64,000 nt of DNA, taken from contig CANMAW010000007.1 of NCBI GenBank assembly GCA_947495915.1, forward strand, positions 124,001 to 188,000, read 5' to 3'. The notes below the pieces were generated by a model, which made no database searches, was not told where the DNA came from, and saw nothing but the letters and a program-made list of their open reading frames with translations. Positions 7,794 through 20,307 of the stretch are shown here, one piece after another; the stretch's first letter is position 1; every line of letters starts with the position of its first letter. Origin of the DNA: Maribacter algarum (ex Lu et al. 2025) (nom. illeg.) (GTDB taxonomy: Bacteria; Bacteroidota; Bacteroidia; Flavobacteriales; Flavobacteriaceae). The position numbers and the translations under genes are program-made.

Positions 7794-8957
7794 CTAATTT
7801 AAAGCCTGTTCAATATCTCTAATAATATCATCAATATGCTCTAGGCCAACAGAAACGCGAACCATACCATCGGTAATACCAGTTTCTGCTCTTTCTTCGG
7901 ATGATAACTTACTATGTGTGGTAGATGCAGGATGCGTTACAATGCTACGAGAATCTCCTAAATTTGCAGATAATGATAACAGTTTAATTCCATCAAAAAA
8001 ATCTTGACCGGCTTTTAGTCCACCTTTAACCTCAAAGGCTACCACACAACCACCAGCCTTCATCTGCTTTTTGGCAATTTCATAGTTAGGATGCGATTTT
8101 AAAAAAGGGTATCTCACCCAATTCACTTTTTCATGCGCTTCTAAATATTCGGCCAATTTCAAAGCATTCTCACAATGTCGGTCTACTCGTAACGCTAAAG
8201 TTTCGAGACTTTTTGATAACACCCATGCGTTAAAAGGTGACAGAGCCGGACCGGTTATTCTTGAAAATCGGTAAACTTTATCAATTAAATCTTTGTCACC
8301 TACAGTAATACCTGCAAGAACTCGACCCTGACCATCCATAAGTTTTGTACCTGAATGTATGACTAAGTCTGCCCCATACTTGATGGGCTGTTGTAAATAA
8401 GGAGACGCAAAACAATTATCAATTACCAATATGAGCCCATGCTTTTTTGCAATTTTCCCTAGTCTTTCTAAATCTAGAACATCAACCCCCGGATTCGTTG
8501 GTGATTCTGCATAGATGATTTTGGTTTTAGGTGTTATTAAACGGTCTATAGCCTCTAGTTCATTTATTTTGAAATAACTATGCGTAATATTCCATTTCGG
8601 AAAGAAGTTATTAAACAAAGAATGCGTTGAGCCAAAAATACTTCGAGCTGATAACACATGATCGCCACTATCTAATAGTGCCGCTAAAGTTGAAAAAACA
8701 GCAGCCATACCTGAAGCAAAAGCAAAACCTGCCTCTGCTCCTTCCATTTGGCATACCTTTTCCACAAATTCTGAAGAATTAGGGTTAGAGTATCTTGAAT
8801 AGATATTTCTCTGTTTTTCTTCAGCAAAAGATGCTCGCATATCTTCTGCATCATCAAATACAAAACTAGAAGTTAAATATAACGGAACAGAATGTTCCAA
8901 ATTTTGCGTACGTTCAAGTTGAGTGCGTATTGCGTTGGTTTCAAATTTATTCTTCAT
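7794..8957 (-). CDS. metZ: Trans-sulfuration PLP enzyme, O-succinylhomoserine sulfhydrylase-like
   Basis: 387 aa Cys/Met metabolism PLP family: VIHSGTKLMDGQGRVLAG, SLSANLGDSRSIVTHPASTTH. Confidence 0.85.
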   Translation of the reverse strand: MKNKFETNAIRTQLERTQNLEHSVPLYLTSSFVFDDAEDMRASFAEEKQRNIYSRYSNPNSSEFVEKVCQMEGAEAGFAFASGMAAVFSTLAALLDSGDHVLSARSIFGSTHSLFNNFFPKWNITHSYFKINELEAIDRLITPKTKIIYAESPTNPGVDVLDLERLGKIAKKHGLILVIDNCFASPYLQQPIKYGADLVIHSGTKLMDGQGRVLAGITVGDKDLIDKVYRFSRITGPALSPFNAWVLSKSLETLALRVDRHCENALKLAEYLEAHEKVNWVRYPFLKSHPNYEIAKKQMKAGGCVVAFEVKGGLKAGQDFFDGIKLLSLSANLGDSRSIVTHPASTTHSKLSSEERAETGITDGMVRVSVGLEHIDDIIRDIEQALN

Positions 8958-11900
8958 TATCCTTTTTCTGCAATTCTTAATATATCTCCGAAAACACCTC
9001 TTGCAGTAACAGCGGCCCCAGCCCCTGCACCTTGTATAACCAAGGGATTTTCTCCGTAAGATTCTGTATAAATTTCTATTATTGAGTCTGAACCTTTTAC
9101 TTGGCCTAGTGCACTCTCTTTTGGAACGGAGATGAGTTTTACATCTAACAGTCCTTTTTCTTCTTGCAGGTTACCATGAAGATCACCAACATAGCGCAAA
9201 ACATGTCCTTCTTTTTGGTTCTTTTTTATTTCGTTGAAGGTATCATCTAACATTCCTAAATTCTTTAAGAAATAGTCGGTTTCACCCTTTTGCAATTGAT
9301 TAGGAATGAGGTTCTGTATTTTAACATCAGAAAACTCATTACTTAGATCAAGCTCACGAGCTAAGATTAATAGCTTTCTACCCACATCATTCCCTGACAA
9401 ATCTTCTCGTGGATCTGGTTCTGTAAAACCTTGGTGCATGGCATCTTTTAAAATTTGAGAAAAAGGTGCATTCACTTCTGAAAATGTGTTAAATATATAA
9501 CTCAATGAACCTGAAAAAACACCCTTTATTCTGGTAATATTCTCACCAGACAAATGCAATAATTTAATCGTATCAATTAAGGGTAAACCAGCACCCACAT
9601 TGGTTTCATATAAATACCTTTTTTGATTTTTATCTAACTCCTCTCGTAATAATTGGTAATAATCAAACCCCAAGGTATTTGCAATTTTATTTGAGGAAAC
9701 AATATCAAATCCGTTTTCAACAAAATCAAAATAATTCGCCACAAAGTCTTCACTTGCGGTATTATCAACAACAATTAGATTTTCAAGATGATTTTCTTTT
9801 GCAAAATCAAAAACATCTTTTAACTCATAATCAACTCCCTTTTTATCTAAAGATGATTTCCATGATTTTGGAATACCTTTTTTATTGATCAAAAGTTTTC
9901 TTGAATTTGCTACTGCAAACACTTTCAAATCAATTCCTTTGCGACTAGCAATAGTTTCTGAAGACTTTAATATTTGTTCGATTAGTGTTCCTCCTACGTT
10001 ACCATGGCCGAAAACCGCCAAGTTTACACGTTTGCTAATACCAAAAATTTGGCCATGCATTACATTTAGCGCCTTGTGCAAATCTGATTTTTTAAGAACT
10101 AAACTTACATTCTTACCAGAAACGGTGTTATTGAATAAAAGTGGAATGATTTGATTTTTTATCAAAGCATTATATGGTTTGTGAAATGTGCTTAAATCTT
10201 GACCCACAATGGAAACAACTGATACATCATCAATAACCGTAATCATATTGATGTCTTTTGACTTCACATCACTTGAAAATTCTAATTCTAAAGCCCGTTT
10301 AGCTTTTTGAGCGTTCGTAGCACTCACAACAAGCCCGATACCTCTTTCTGAAGAGCCTTGAGAAATAATACTAACATTGATGTTATTTGCTTCTAAGGTT
10401 TTAAAAATTCTGGCATCAATACCCACTTTACCCAGCAGACCTCTACCTTCAAGGTTCACTAAAGAAACATCATCAATATTAGACAATGACTTGATGCCTT
10501 CCTTACTTGATTTTGCACTAATTAAGGTACCCTCGTTATCATCATTAAAAGTGTTCAATATTCTTAAAGGAATATTTTTTTCAATCAATGGAATAATTGT
10601 TTTAGCATGCAAAATCTTAGCTCCAAAATTTGCCAACTCATTAGCCTCAGCGTACGATAAATTTGATAGTCGTTTTGCCTCTACCACAAAATCAGGATTC
10701 GCAGTAAAAATACCATCAACATGAGTATAATTTTGCAACTCTTCAGCATTCAAATAATTAGCAAGTAATGCGGCTGAATAATTACTACCATTTCTACCTA
10801 GGGTTGTTGTTTCACCATCGGCATTAGAAGCAATAAACCCTGTAAAAATTGGAACAGAACCTGTTGGTAGTTCTGCAAATTTAAGTAGTAAATTCTCTTT
10901 AGATATAGCTTCTAAAATTGTAGCATCTCCAAAATTATTATTCGTTTTTAATAAGGTTCTTGCATCAATGAACTTTGCATTAATTCCTTTACCTATTAAA
11001 AGCTTAGTAACTAATTTGGCCGAAATTATTTCGCCATAAGCTAAGACCTCATCTTTAATTTTAGGACTATAATCACCTAACAATGAAATACCTTCAAATA
11101 GTTTTGCAAGACTTTTGAATTCTAAAGAAAGGTTTACATTACTAAAAGTGTGTTTTTGATATTTTTCAAAGGCTTCAAAATCTTTAATATAGTTTTGACC
11201 CTTGGCTGCCTTTTCAAGCATCAATTCTAATTGGTCTGTCGCTTTTTCTCTAGCTGATAAAACCACTGCGATATTAGCTTCTTGATTTACCTTATTAGTA
11301 ATAATTTCTAATACTCGCCCTAACCCTTCACCATTACTCAACGACTTTCCGCCAAACTTTAAAACTGTAACTTTTTTTGATTTCCCGTTTTTGTTGAAAA
11401 TTCCGTTCAATAATTTTTCTAATTGTTCAAATTCAATTAGAAAAGCATCATGCCCGTGCAACGACTGAATTTCGCCATAAGTAACATTACTATTAGCTTG
11501 TGCAATTTGCTTAAATGTATCTTTATTCTCTTTTGCCGTAAAAAACAAATCAGAGTCTACACCAATAATATGAATATTAGTTTTGCTATTTTGTAAATTG
11601 GTGAAATTCTTTTGGCCATCTCTAGTTACATCAATGGTTTTCAACAATTGATTCATTAGTTTATAAGCTGAAAGTTGAAATCTTTCTTGTAATTTTTCAC
11701 CATGATGCATTAACCAACTCTCTACATTAAAAACTTGTAGTTCTTCATTAGTACTGCGTTTAAATCGTTCTTTAAAAGATTCAGGTGTTCGATAACAAAG
11801 CATGGCATGCATTCTAGCATCGTGCACCGGTTGCTTAGAATTCACTAAAAATTGCTCTTGAATTTGACAATTAGCAATTAACCAATCGGTAGATTTCCAA

Positions 11901-12343
11901 TCAGAAGCAACAGGAATCAAATGTTCGGTTAATTTTGGATTTATCGCAGCCATTTCCCAAGCAATTCCACCGCCTAATGATCCGCCTATTATGGCATATA
12001 GGTTATCGATTTCAAGTTGGCGCAGTCCTTCTAAAAAAATATGCGCTATATCACCGGCTACAAAGTCTTTATAATTATCGATTACAAACTTATCGTATCC
12101 ATTACCAGGTATATTGAACGATAAAATGGTATACTTTCTAGTGTCTATGCATTTTCCATCACCGATCAATGCAGACCACCAGCCAGTTTTTCCTGTAACA
12201 TCAGAATTACCTGTTAAGGCATGATTAACTAAAACTATAGGTGCATCATGCAGCTTTTTGCCAAATACCTCATATGACAATTCAATATTTTGAGTTACAC
12301 CACTTAGGGTTGTAAAATCTTTTATTTTAAGATGATGGAGCAT
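8957..12343 (-). CDS. Fusion of homoserine O-acetyltransferase (MetX-like), aspartate kinase and homoserine dehydrogenase
   Basis: 1128 aa: N-terminal alpha/beta hydrolase (VNHALTGNSDV, GGSLGGGIAWE), then aspartokinase (VTVLKFGGKSL, ACT domains), then homoserine dehydrogenase (VNLAVFGHGNVGG, ETNVGAGLPLIDTIK). Confidence 0.93.
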   Translation of the reverse strand: MLHHLKIKDFTTLSGVTQNIELSYEVFGKKLHDAPIVLVNHALTGNSDVTGKTGWWSALIGDGKCIDTRKYTILSFNIPGNGYDKFVIDNYKDFVAGDIAHIFLEGLRQLEIDNLYAIIGGSLGGGIAWEMAAINPKLTEHLIPVASDWKSTDWLIANCQIQEQFLVNSKQPVHDARMHAMLCYRTPESFKERFKRSTNEELQVFNVESWLMHHGEKLQERFQLSAYKLMNQLLKTIDVTRDGQKNFTNLQNSKTNIHIIGVDSDLFFTAKENKDTFKQIAQANSNVTYGEIQSLHGHDAFLIEFEQLEKLLNGIFNKNGKSKKVTVLKFGGKSLSNGEGLGRVLEIITNKVNQEANIAVVLSAREKATDQLELMLEKAAKGQNYIKDFEAFEKYQKHTFSNVNLSLEFKSLAKLFEGISLLGDYSPKIKDEVLAYGEIISAKLVTKLLIGKGINAKFIDARTLLKTNNNFGDATILEAISKENLLLKFAELPTGSVPIFTGFIASNADGETTTLGRNGSNYSAALLANYLNAEELQNYTHVDGIFTANPDFVVEAKRLSNLSYAEANELANFGAKILHAKTIIPLIEKNIPLRILNTFNDDNEGTLISAKSSKEGIKSLSNIDDVSLVNLEGRGLLGKVGIDARIFKTLEANNINVSIISQGSSERGIGLVVSATNAQKAKRALELEFSSDVKSKDINMITVIDDVSVVSIVGQDLSTFHKPYNALIKNQIIPLLFNNTVSGKNVSLVLKKSDLHKALNVMHGQIFGISKRVNLAVFGHGNVGGTLIEQILKSSETIASRKGIDLKVFAVANSRKLLINKKGIPKSWKSSLDKKGVDYELKDVFDFAKENHLENLIVVDNTASEDFVANYFDFVENGFDIVSSNKIANTLGFDYYQLLREELDKNQKRYLYETNVGAGLPLIDTIKLLHLSGENITRIKGVFSGSLSYIFNTFSEVNAPFSQILKDAMHQGFTEPDPREDLSGNDVGRKLLILARELDLSNEFSDVKIQNLIPNQLQKGETDYFLKNLGMLDDTFNEIKKNQKEGHVLRYVGDLHGNLQEEKGLLDVKLISVPKESALGQVKGSDSIIEIYTESYGENPLVIQGAGAGAAVTARGVFGDILRIAEKG

Positions 12344-12398: not shown

Positions 12399-13691
12399 TT
12401 AGGCCTCTACTGAATTTTTAATTGCAGAAAAAGCGTTTTCTAAATCTGTTTTAAGGTCAGCAATATCTTCAAGACCAACAGACAATCGAATTAAATCTTG
12501 TGAAACTCCTGCAGCAGCTTGCTGTTCTTCTGACAACTGTTGATGTGTAGTACTTGCCGGGTGAATAATTAATGATTTTGTATCACCAATATTGGCCAAT
12601 AATGAAAACACCTCAGTGGCATCTGTTAATTTTTTGGCCGCTTCGAAACCACCTTTAACTCCGAATGTCACTAAGCCACTTTGCCCTTTTGGCAAGTATT
12701 CTTTGGCTAGCTCATGGTACTTATTACTTTTTAATCCAGGGTAATTAACCCAAGCCACCTCATCTCTACCCTCTAACCAAGTAGCTAATTCAAGAGCATT
12801 TGCACTATGTTGTTTAATTCTAACAGGAAGTGTTTCTAAACCTTGAATAATTTGAAAAGCGTTAAACGGACTTAACGCTCCACCGAAATCTCTTAATCCC
12901 TCTAAAATAAGTTTGAAGGTAAAAGCAGCAGCACCTAAGGCTTCACTATAAACCAAACCATGGTAGCCTGCTGAAGGCTCTGTAAACTCCGGAAATTTTC
13001 CGTTAGTCCAATCGAAAGTACCAGCGTCAATTATTGCGCCACCCAAAGATGTACCTTGACCTCCGATATATTTGGTAAGAGAATGAATTACTAAGTTTGC
13101 GCCATGCTCGATCGGATTAAGTAAACCTGGTGTAGCTACCGTATTGTCTACAATAAAAGGCACCTTAGCAGCTTTTGCCTCTTTTGAAATAGCTCTTAAA
13201 TCTAAAACATCGAGTTTCGGATTACCTAAAGATTCTACAAAAATGGCTCTAGTATTCTCTTGCACAGCTTTACCAAAATTTTCAGGTTCTGAAGCATCTA
13301 CAAACGTTGTAGTAATACCTAGCCGTGGCAGGGTTACGTTAAGTAAATTAAAAGTACCGCCATACAAACTACTTGAGGCCACAATATGATCACCTGCTTT
13401 AAGAAGCGTTAATAAACCTGTTGAAATTGCAGCAGTACCTGAGGCAAAAACCACCGCACCAACTCCGCCTTCCACGGCAGCCAAACGTTCTTGAAGTATT
13501 TGATTTGTAGGGTTATTTAATCGCGTATAAATAAATCCTAATTCTGCTAAAGAAAATAAGTTTGCTGCGTGTTCTGTATCGTTAAAAACATACGATGATG
13601 TTTGATAAATAGGAACAGCTCTAGTACCCCCTGTTTGAGTGGTGTCGTGACCTGCGTGTAATGCGTTTGTTGCTAATTTTTTAGTGCTCAT
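12399..13691 (-). CDS. metY: O-acetylhomoserine aminocarboxypropyltransferase / sulfhydrylase
   Basis: 430 aa; HAGHDTTQTGGTRAVPIYQTSSYVFNDTEHAANLF, VIHSLTKYIGGQGTSLGGAIID. Confidence 0.95.
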   Translation of the reverse strand: MSTKKLATNALHAGHDTTQTGGTRAVPIYQTSSYVFNDTEHAANLFSLAELGFIYTRLNNPTNQILQERLAAVEGGVGAVVFASGTAAISTGLLTLLKAGDHIVASSSLYGGTFNLLNVTLPRLGITTTFVDASEPENFGKAVQENTRAIFVESLGNPKLDVLDLRAISKEAKAAKVPFIVDNTVATPGLLNPIEHGANLVIHSLTKYIGGQGTSLGGAIIDAGTFDWTNGKFPEFTEPSAGYHGLVYSEALGAAAFTFKLILEGLRDFGGALSPFNAFQIIQGLETLPVRIKQHSANALELATWLEGRDEVAWVNYPGLKSNKYHELAKEYLPKGQSGLVTFGVKGGFEAAKKLTDATEVFSLLANIGDTKSLIIHPASTTHQQLSEEQQAAAGVSQDLIRLSVGLEDIADLKTDLENAFSAIKNSVEA

Positions 13692-13761: not shown

Positions 13762-13816
13762 TAAAATCAAAAAGTTATAAGAAAGCTAAAGATTACTTTT
13801 GTAAGTAATTCGTTGC

Positions 13817-13920
13817 GTTATCTGTCCTTTATTATAGGATAGAATTTAGCACCTTCTCTGTAAAGAACAAAGGGTTGCTAAGGCTTCATAGGGTCTAATC
13901 CCTCCGCCTTTCTTGATAAC
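13817..13920 (-). ncRNA. SAM-I (S-box) riboswitch upstream of metY
   Basis: Minus strand GTTATCAAGAAAGGCGGAGGGATTAGACCCTATGAAGCCTTAGCAACC...AAGGTGCTAAATTC...GATAAC; matches the S-box core with a closing P1 (GUUAUC/GAUAAC). Confidence 0.95.
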
Positions 13921-14095
13921 TATTCAATACGTGTTTGAACTTTGTATAGCACAAATTAAAGTCAGAAAGATTTAAAAACCTAATGTTTCACATAAAATTA
14001 TAAATTGTGAAAAACCAATTCTCTAAACCTATCACTTAAGAAATTTCTTTTTTTATCTAATGACACCTTTCAGAGCTTGATAAAAACAATTTCTT

Positions 14096-18703: not shown

Positions 18704-19960
18704 TTATAGGTTGAATTCTTTTTTGATGGCATCAACTTGATCTAACTTTTCCCATGTAAATAGTTCAACTTCCTTCTCTACACGGCCATTATAAGGTGAT
18801 TCAAATACCTTAGTTACAATCTTAGACTCTTTACCCATATGACCATAAGCAGCGGTTTCTAAATAGATAGGACTTCTAAGTTTTAATCGTTTCTCAATGG
18901 CAAAAGGTCGCATATCGAATATTTTTTCAACCTTTCTAGCTATTTCACCATCGGTTAATTCGACATTTGAAGTGCCATAAGTATCAACAAATATTGATGT
19001 TGGCTCAACGACTCCAATAGCATAACTGACTTGAACCAAAATTTCATCAGCTACACCAGCCGCTACCAAATTTTTAGCAGCATGACGTGCCGCATAAGCT
19101 GCACTTCGGTCTACTTTACTAGGGTCTTTACCACTAAATGCACCACCACCATGAGCGCCTTTTCCGCCATAGGTATCAACTATAATCTTTCGCCCAGTCA
19201 AACCAGTATCACCGTGAGGGCCTCCAATTACAAATTTTCCTGTAGGATTTATGTGATATTTAATTTGATCATCAAAAAGATTTTGAATCTTTTTGGGTAA
19301 TTTTTTCTTTACCAATGGAATCAAAATTTCAACAATATCTTTTTTAATTTTTGCCAGCATTTTCTCATCGCTCTTATGAAAAGCGTCGTGTTGGGTAGAT
19401 ACTACAATGGTATCAATTCGCTGCGGAATATTGTCATCAGAATACTCAATGGTAACTTGAGATTTCGCATCAGGTCTTAAATAATCAATTTCTTTTCCTT
19501 TACGTCTGAGATCTGCTAAAACTTGTAATATTTTATGCGAGATATCAAGCGCTAGAGGCATATAATTACTCGTCTCTTTAGTGGCATAACCAAACATCAT
19601 ACCTTGATCACCAGCACCTTGTTCTTCTTTAGACCCTCTATCAACCCCTTGATTTATATCTTGCGATTGCTCATGAATTAAAGAGATCACCCCACATGAA
19701 TCACCACTAAATTGATATTCACCTTTGGTATACCCTATCTTGTTTATTACTTGTCGAGCTATGTTTTGAACATCTAAATAGGTCTCACTTTTTACTTCAC
19801 CCGCCAAAACTACCTGACCCGTAGTAACTAGAGTTTCGCAGGCCACTTTACTTTCGGGGTCAAAAGCTAAAAAACTATCTAATAACGCGTCACTAATTTG
19901 GTCTGCTACCTTATCTGGGTGCCCTTCACTAACTGATTCTGAAGTAAATAAATATGCCAT
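18704..19960 (-). CDS. metK: S-adenosylmethionine synthetase
   Basis: 418 aa; [55 protein letters not shown]. Confidence 0.98.
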
Positions 19961-19975
19961 TCGTTCTATTTTTCA

Positions 19976-19987
19976 GGAAGATTTGAC
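19976..19987 (-). promoter_or_regulatory. Candidate anti-aptamer segment GTCAAATCTTCC upstream of the metK start
   Basis: Complementary to 20047-20059 (GGAAGGATTTGAC on minus strand): 12 bp with one bulged G. Confidence 0.6.
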
Positions 19988-20010
19988 GAAAAGGCTACAA
20001 GAAGTTTACA

Positions 20011-20065
20011 CCGCTTTTTAGCATTTTTTTACCGAGGTTGCAATCAGTCAAATCCTTCCTCCTTG
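20011..20065 (-). ncRNA. SAM-II-like riboswitch aptamer upstream of metK
   Basis: Minus strand GAGGAAGGATTTGACTGATTGCAACCTCGGTAAAAAAATGCTAAAAAGC; matches the remembered SAM-II core GAUUUaAcNGUAUUGCAA...GCUAAAAAGG. Confidence 0.82.
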
Positions 20066-20307
20066 TTTTTTTACAAAAATATGAAAATAGTTTTGTTGTA
20101 AAAGGTATTATTAAAAGATTTCAAAATGAACGTAACCGTCCTTTTTTACACCCTATTTACATTTAACTAATCTCCATAACTACTACATAAAGCTATTCAT
20201 ATAATTCAATTCGTATTTCAACAACTATTTTTTCGCAAACTAGATATACTTTGTATCTTGTCAGACGTTCACTTTAGCCAAAAGCTAACCATAATTTATA
20301 CATTCAC

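Follow-up and report, generated by a model that had tools for sequence, protein, structure and literature searches.

A SAM-II aptamer ahead of metK in Maribacter algarum is followed by a conserved anti-aptamer strand, suggesting strand-exchange control of the start codon

The window analyzed here is a stretch of 64,000 nucleotides from Maribacter algarum that contains metK, encoding methionine adenosyltransferase, on the minus strand with an aptamer just ahead of it. An initial annotation made from the letters of the window had claimed a SAM-II-like riboswitch on metK, and covariance search bears this out with a match to RF01726 at 64.4 bits, well above the gathering score of 44 bits. By its match to TIGR01034, the gene directly downstream of this aptamer is a SAM/methionine gene, and its ATG lies at 19960-19958 on the minus strand. 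The features of the aptamer and gene are:

20074..20081 (-), -7 promoter box TATTTTTG, fitting the TAnnTTTG consensus
20008..20067 (-), SAM-II aptamer (Rfam RF01726, 'SAM-II long loop'), cmscan 64.4 bits, E 1.3e-11
20040..20047 (-), P2 5' strand CTGATTGC, whose first C is common to strand A (below)
20034..20037 (-), P1 3' strand CCTC, partner of GAGG at 20061-20058 in the cmscan alignment
20011..20023 (-), P2 3' strand TGCTAAAAAGCGG, from the cmscan alignment and the sequence
18704..19960 (-), metK, methionine adenosyltransferase (TIGR01034, 508 bits)

The cmscan alignment and the sequence contain the P1 stem GAGG/CCTC, the conserved L1 GATTTGACTGATTGC and both strands of the P2 pseudoknot, the 3' strand of which ends (20011) 50 nt ahead of the metK AUG. 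Weinberg et al. (2010, PMC2864571) described RF01726 from marine DNA and Bacteroidetes, and the aptamer in the window is an ordinary member of this family by sequence, P1 and P2 strands, and metK context. The window copy is predicted from its sequence to bind SAM. The position of the -7 box implies a transcript that begins shortly before the aptamer. TAnnTTTG, a promoter consensus taken from PMC9723704, is found in 214 of 222 leaders no more than 45 nt upstream of P1, against 9.2 expected. We also observed an AUG behind an A-run inside the aptamer (AAAAUGCUAAA, at about 20024-20022 in the window) that resembles a flavobacterial start site and is present in 205 of the 222 leaders. An upstream ORF beginning at this AUG was considered and rejected, as its length (3-53 codons) and frame vary between leaders.

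The same window contains a SAM-I riboswitch (RF00162, 76.5 bits; 13815-13922, minus strand) 6 kb from the SAM-II on metK and ahead of a gene for a Cys/Met PLP enzyme (12399-13691). Directly after this gene is a single ORF of 1128 aa (8957-12343, minus strand) that combines a MetX-like alpha/beta hydrolase, an aspartokinase with an ACT domain and a homoserine dehydrogenase. Both SAM-I and SAM-II occur in 116 of 151 genomes of the family; a 2007 survey (PMC2258182) had found no species with both. The two classes apparently divide the work, SAM-I serving methionine genes and SAM-II serving metK.

Three elements between the start of the aptamer and metK are predicted to form a structure that competes with the folded aptamer:

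20047..20059 (-), strand A, the P1 5' strand and L1 (GGAAGGATTTGAC), paired with A' in the minimum free energy (MFE) fold
19994..20022 (-), AP2, a hairpin of the SAM-free state in which the P2 3' strand is engaged, from the MFE fold and covariation in relatives
19976..19987 (-), A', the anti-aptamer strand GTCAAATCTTCC, complement of strand A with one bulge

The initial annotation had described complementarity with one bulge between 20059-20047 and 19987-19976, and we found the sequence and both pairs of coordinates exactly as claimed. It had further proposed that this pairing uses P1 and the loop and excludes the folded aptamer; strand A indeed consists of the P1 5' strand and L1, and the two folds are mutually exclusive. 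The distance of A' from the metK AUG, given as about 15 nt, was 15 nt by count. Folding the leader as a single strand yielded an MFE structure of -24.8 kcal/mol that includes the claimed pairing, and forcing P1 while leaving the P2 strands unpaired gave -13.7 kcal/mol, a value in which P2 and SAM are uncounted. In the SAM-free MFE fold, A:A' is the outer helix and AP2 the inner one, with GCUA (20022-20019) paired to UAGC (19997-19994) and, inside this, AAGcGGU to ACUuCUU. The duplex of strand A with the downstream sequence was equalled or bettered in 9 of 200 dinucleotide shuffles, so that the window sequence alone is no proof of the pairing and the conservation and covariation in relatives decide.

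RF01726 is present in 144 of 151 genomes of the family of the window, Flavobacteriaceae, and in 14 of 15 genomes of its genus, and nearly all of the copies that we fetched sit on metK. We gathered 103 loci from the family genomes and more by a class search and a pattern scan of named genomes, which together left 219 distinct metK leaders from Flavobacteriaceae and related Bacteroidota whose downstream sequence could be used. The aptamer of each leader was compared with its own downstream stretch, and expected counts were obtained from shuffles. Among leaders with a GATTTG core, 60 of 125 contained their own anti-ATTTGA-type 6-mer (9.6 expected); just 3 of 94 leaders with an AATTTG core did so. 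GCAATC, which is complementary to the P2 5' strand GATTGC, was found in 36 of the 94 AATTTG-core leaders (1.2 expected), making the P2 5' strand the target in this class. A complement of the P2 3' strand (anti-CTAAA plus the next base) occurred in 51 of 94 AATTTG-core leaders (5.6 expected) and 16 of 125 GATTTG-core leaders (4.2 expected). Two controls, copies on the same strand and sequences complementary to the P1 3' side, gave counts at or near chance across the 219 leaders. A finer scan of 6-mers along the aptamer in the first 118 leaders showed that the signal is concentrated at the P1/L1 and P2 elements. Judged by motif, about one third of the leaders have neither register.

Several further observations were made in this set. 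Two SAM-II copies that are not on metK also carry an A'-like element (GATTTGAC / GTCAAATC in L009 and AAGGATTT / AAATCCTT in L033), suggesting that the platform may travel with the aptamer. In leaders L024, L047, L053, L058, L063, L064 and L067 and their relatives, the opening CGTC of A' forms one arm of a small GACG-loop-CGTC hairpin, which would be a competitor of A:A'. Flavobacteria-like metK leaders L191 and L194 come from records titled Candidatus Rokubacteria and Klebsiella pneumoniae MAG, which are probably misbinned contigs.

We then scored covariation in A:A' by anchoring leaders on CAAAT only and counting pairs at the flanking positions against shuffled rows, a comparison that ignores relatedness. 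At the variable position x-2, which lies outside the invariant core (20055 in the window, with its partner z+2 at 19979), A-T was found in 32 and G-C in 22 of 85 leaders; 55 Watson-Crick pairs were counted versus 34.0 with rows shuffled, and none of 5000 shuffles was as high, with relatedness ignored. Under the same proviso, position y+2 had 61 Watson-Crick pairs versus 48.4, and the base after GCTAAA in AP2 had 67 (G-C 53, A-T 14) versus 50.1. Position y+3 is unpaired, and sliding the columns by one gave no covariation in the A:A' test. Leader L052 has an altered core, AATTTGGTC (GGAATAATTTGGTC), and a partner altered to match it exactly, GACCAAATT (GACCAAATTATTC). In an alignment of 23 rows, structure pairs occupied 93% of cells compared to 25-53% when slid, with few cells (7) changed on both sides. 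Tree-based independent contrasts for x-2:z+2 counted 6 and 10 changes on the tree, with few branches supported.

The initial annotation named two outcomes that would refute it, absence of a SAM-II covariance hit and lack of conservation of the 12-bp complement in homologous metK leaders; the hit is there, and the complement is conserved and covaries. A chance origin of the complementarity, on which the window was indecisive (9/200), is rejected by this conservation and covariation over relatives, and the anti-aptamer is very likely a real, selected feature. The leader has a downstream strand that complements part of the aptamer, excludes its fold and has evolutionary support, the arrangement of a strand-exchange riboswitch. 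The first reading nevertheless needs extending: there are two anti-aptamer registers that depend on the aptamer sub-type, and a second SAM-free hairpin, AP2, holds the P2 3' strand. The strong conservation of CGTCAAATC in part of the family could instead mean that A' is kept for another reason, such as a protein or sRNA site or an mRNA stability element, its complementarity to the aptamer being incidental. We regard this as very improbable given that the register switches with aptamer sub-type, that a changed core comes with a changed partner and that the edge of the pairing is sharp, with y+3 unpaired.

The first reading left the OFF step unexplained. We propose that the link to the start codon is that the SAM-free helices keep busy the strands that could otherwise cover it. 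Two further features in the window are involved in the predicted bound-state fold:

19979..19995 (-), anti-start strand GCC-UU-UUCGU-CAAA-UCU, overlapping A' and AP2
19956..19967 (-), start region AGA-ACGAA-U-GGC, which includes the AUG

The computed energy of the duplex between them is -10.1 kcal/mol. We approximated the bound state by taking the aptamer out of the fold, leaving the pseudoknot unscored. When this is done, GCC (19995-19993) and UUCGU (19990-19986) pair with 19967-19956 and the AUG lies inside the stem; the SAM-free MFE fold keeps both segments off the start codon. In the window, the unpaired probability of the start region falls from 0.74 in the free state to 0.48 with the aptamer excluded. 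Across the 219 leaders, with the start region scored as -15 to +9, it went from 0.584 to 0.519; shuffled linkers gave 0.537 free and 0.535 bound, a change of 0.002 (native versus shuffled, p=1.4e-13). The significance of this difference comes chiefly from a native free state that is more open than chance, and not from a more closed bound state, so that it does not demonstrate a dedicated sequestering hairpin in many species. A universal sequestering hairpin was rejected, the bound-state start pairing of the GATTTG class being not above chance.

A clear start-site stem was found in a compact sub-group (L002, L003, L005, L014, L036), in which a UUGCUUU/AAAGCAA stem adjoins the AUG with A' in the loop, and in the window and two relatives. 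In the latter three the anti-start strand varies with the second codon of metK: the window (L096) has GCA and GCC/AUGGC, L084 has CCC and GGGC/AUGCCC, and L218, from Flagellimonas meridianipacifica, has CCA and GGCAUUC/GAAUGCC. Leaders as a whole fitted their own start regions better than start regions from another second-codon class (p=1.4e-3); own and swapped start regions inside one second-codon class did not differ (p=0.42).

Flavobacteria lack Shine-Dalgarno (SD) sequences, and structure around the AUG tunes their initiation (PMC6847099). In the classic model of SAM-II the P2 3' strand is the ribosome binding site (review PMC10907184), and were metK controlled by direct occlusion like metX SAM-II, P2 would block the ribosome and the downstream complementarity would be irrelevant to switching. 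There is little to commend this here, as the P2 3' strand stops 50 nt short of the AUG and holds no ribosome binding or SD site close to the start codon, SD is unused in the phylum (PMC6847099), and conservation and covariation are seen for A', GCAATC and AP2. The same anti-aptamer could alternatively have a transcriptional output, in which, with SAM bound, Rho or an unusual terminator stops transcription within the leader or early in metK and A:A' is the antiterminator. Alpha-proteobacterial SAM-II often has terminators downstream (PMC1273637), metZ of S. meliloti is predicted to act through termination (PMC9373788), and some AATTTG-class leaders have U-rich runs after GCAATC. However, positions 19800-20200 of the window contain 0 terminator-like sites, that is, no hairpin followed by a U tract, and both the start-site effect and the changes with the second codon point to the AUG. 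We consider a transcriptional output unlikely, though less so than direct occlusion. The absence of SD, the 50 nt between the P2 3' strand and the AUG, and the lack of a terminator-like site favour translation as the regulated step.

Based on these results, we suggest, with a probability of roughly 0.7, that the leader is a strand-exchange SAM-II OFF switch that exposes the metK start through the SAM-free pairing and shuts it when SAM binds. The aptamer matches RF01726, the SAM-free helices are conserved and covary, and predicted start pairing differs between the two states; from these we infer which way the switch works and that translation is what it regulates. When SAM is scarce, A' (19987-19976) would pair with the P1 5'/L1 strand and undo the aptamer, AP2 would absorb the P2 3' strand, and the strands able to cover the AUG would be occupied, leaving the start region open. 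When SAM is present, the ligand would lock P1, P2 and L1 and free A' and the 3' strand of AP2. The freed GCC..UUCGU..UCU would then pair with AGA-ACGAA-U-GGC and fewer rounds of translation would start. The proposal in the initial annotation of a built-in switch unlike plain SD-masking, itself a prediction from sequence, gains support from the conserved, covarying pairing.

The RF01726 model has 60 positions and ends at about the end of the aptamer, so A', GCAATC and AP2 lie outside it. The small H-type pseudoknot is common to this family and alpha-proteobacterial SAM-II, RF00521 (Corbino et al. 2005, PMC1273637; Scheuer et al. 2022, PMC9373788; metX structure 2QWY). Alike too, although predicted here, are SAM sensing, an OFF switch on methionine or SAM genes, and a promoter just before P1. 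The outputs differ: RF00521 acts by occlusion of the ribosome binding site by P2 or by an intrinsic terminator, whereas the flavobacterial leaders have anti-aptamer pairing to P1/L1 or P2 and no SD. A shared switching strand and mutually exclusive folds are traits of strand-exchange 'group 3' riboswitches such as ZTP (PMC10907184). That review places SAM-II in group 1, direct occlusion; the flavobacterial members would work like group 3. In the openly readable literature that we searched, neither an anti-aptamer in flavobacterial SAM-II nor such a switching arrangement in the SAM-II class had been described, which makes any priority provisional. It is somewhat more likely than not that, across the family, SAM-II in the SD-less Flavobacteriia has moved from direct occlusion to strand exchange, with anti-P1/L1 and anti-P2 registers split by aptamer sub-type and a start-burying strand that co-evolves with the second codon of metK. 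On the best reading, the leader holds a riboswitch that is SAM-II by its aptamer and works like a strand-exchange riboswitch.

SAM-II is the textbook example of a direct-occlusion riboswitch. Bacteroidota have no Shine-Dalgarno sites and therefore the textbook SAM-II mechanism cannot apply there as it stands. How the aptamer communicates with the output has been called the most important open problem (review PMC10907184). The riboswitch is found in nearly every member of the family, and its conserved, covarying platform offers a concrete model, open to mutation, of how a riboswitch can control translation in the absence of Shine-Dalgarno sites; flavobacterial SAM-II shows one aptamer evolving different outputs. 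In this flavobacterium, as in most of its relatives, metK begins with a known SAM sensor followed by a conserved strand that is predicted to be able to undo the sensor when SAM is scarce.
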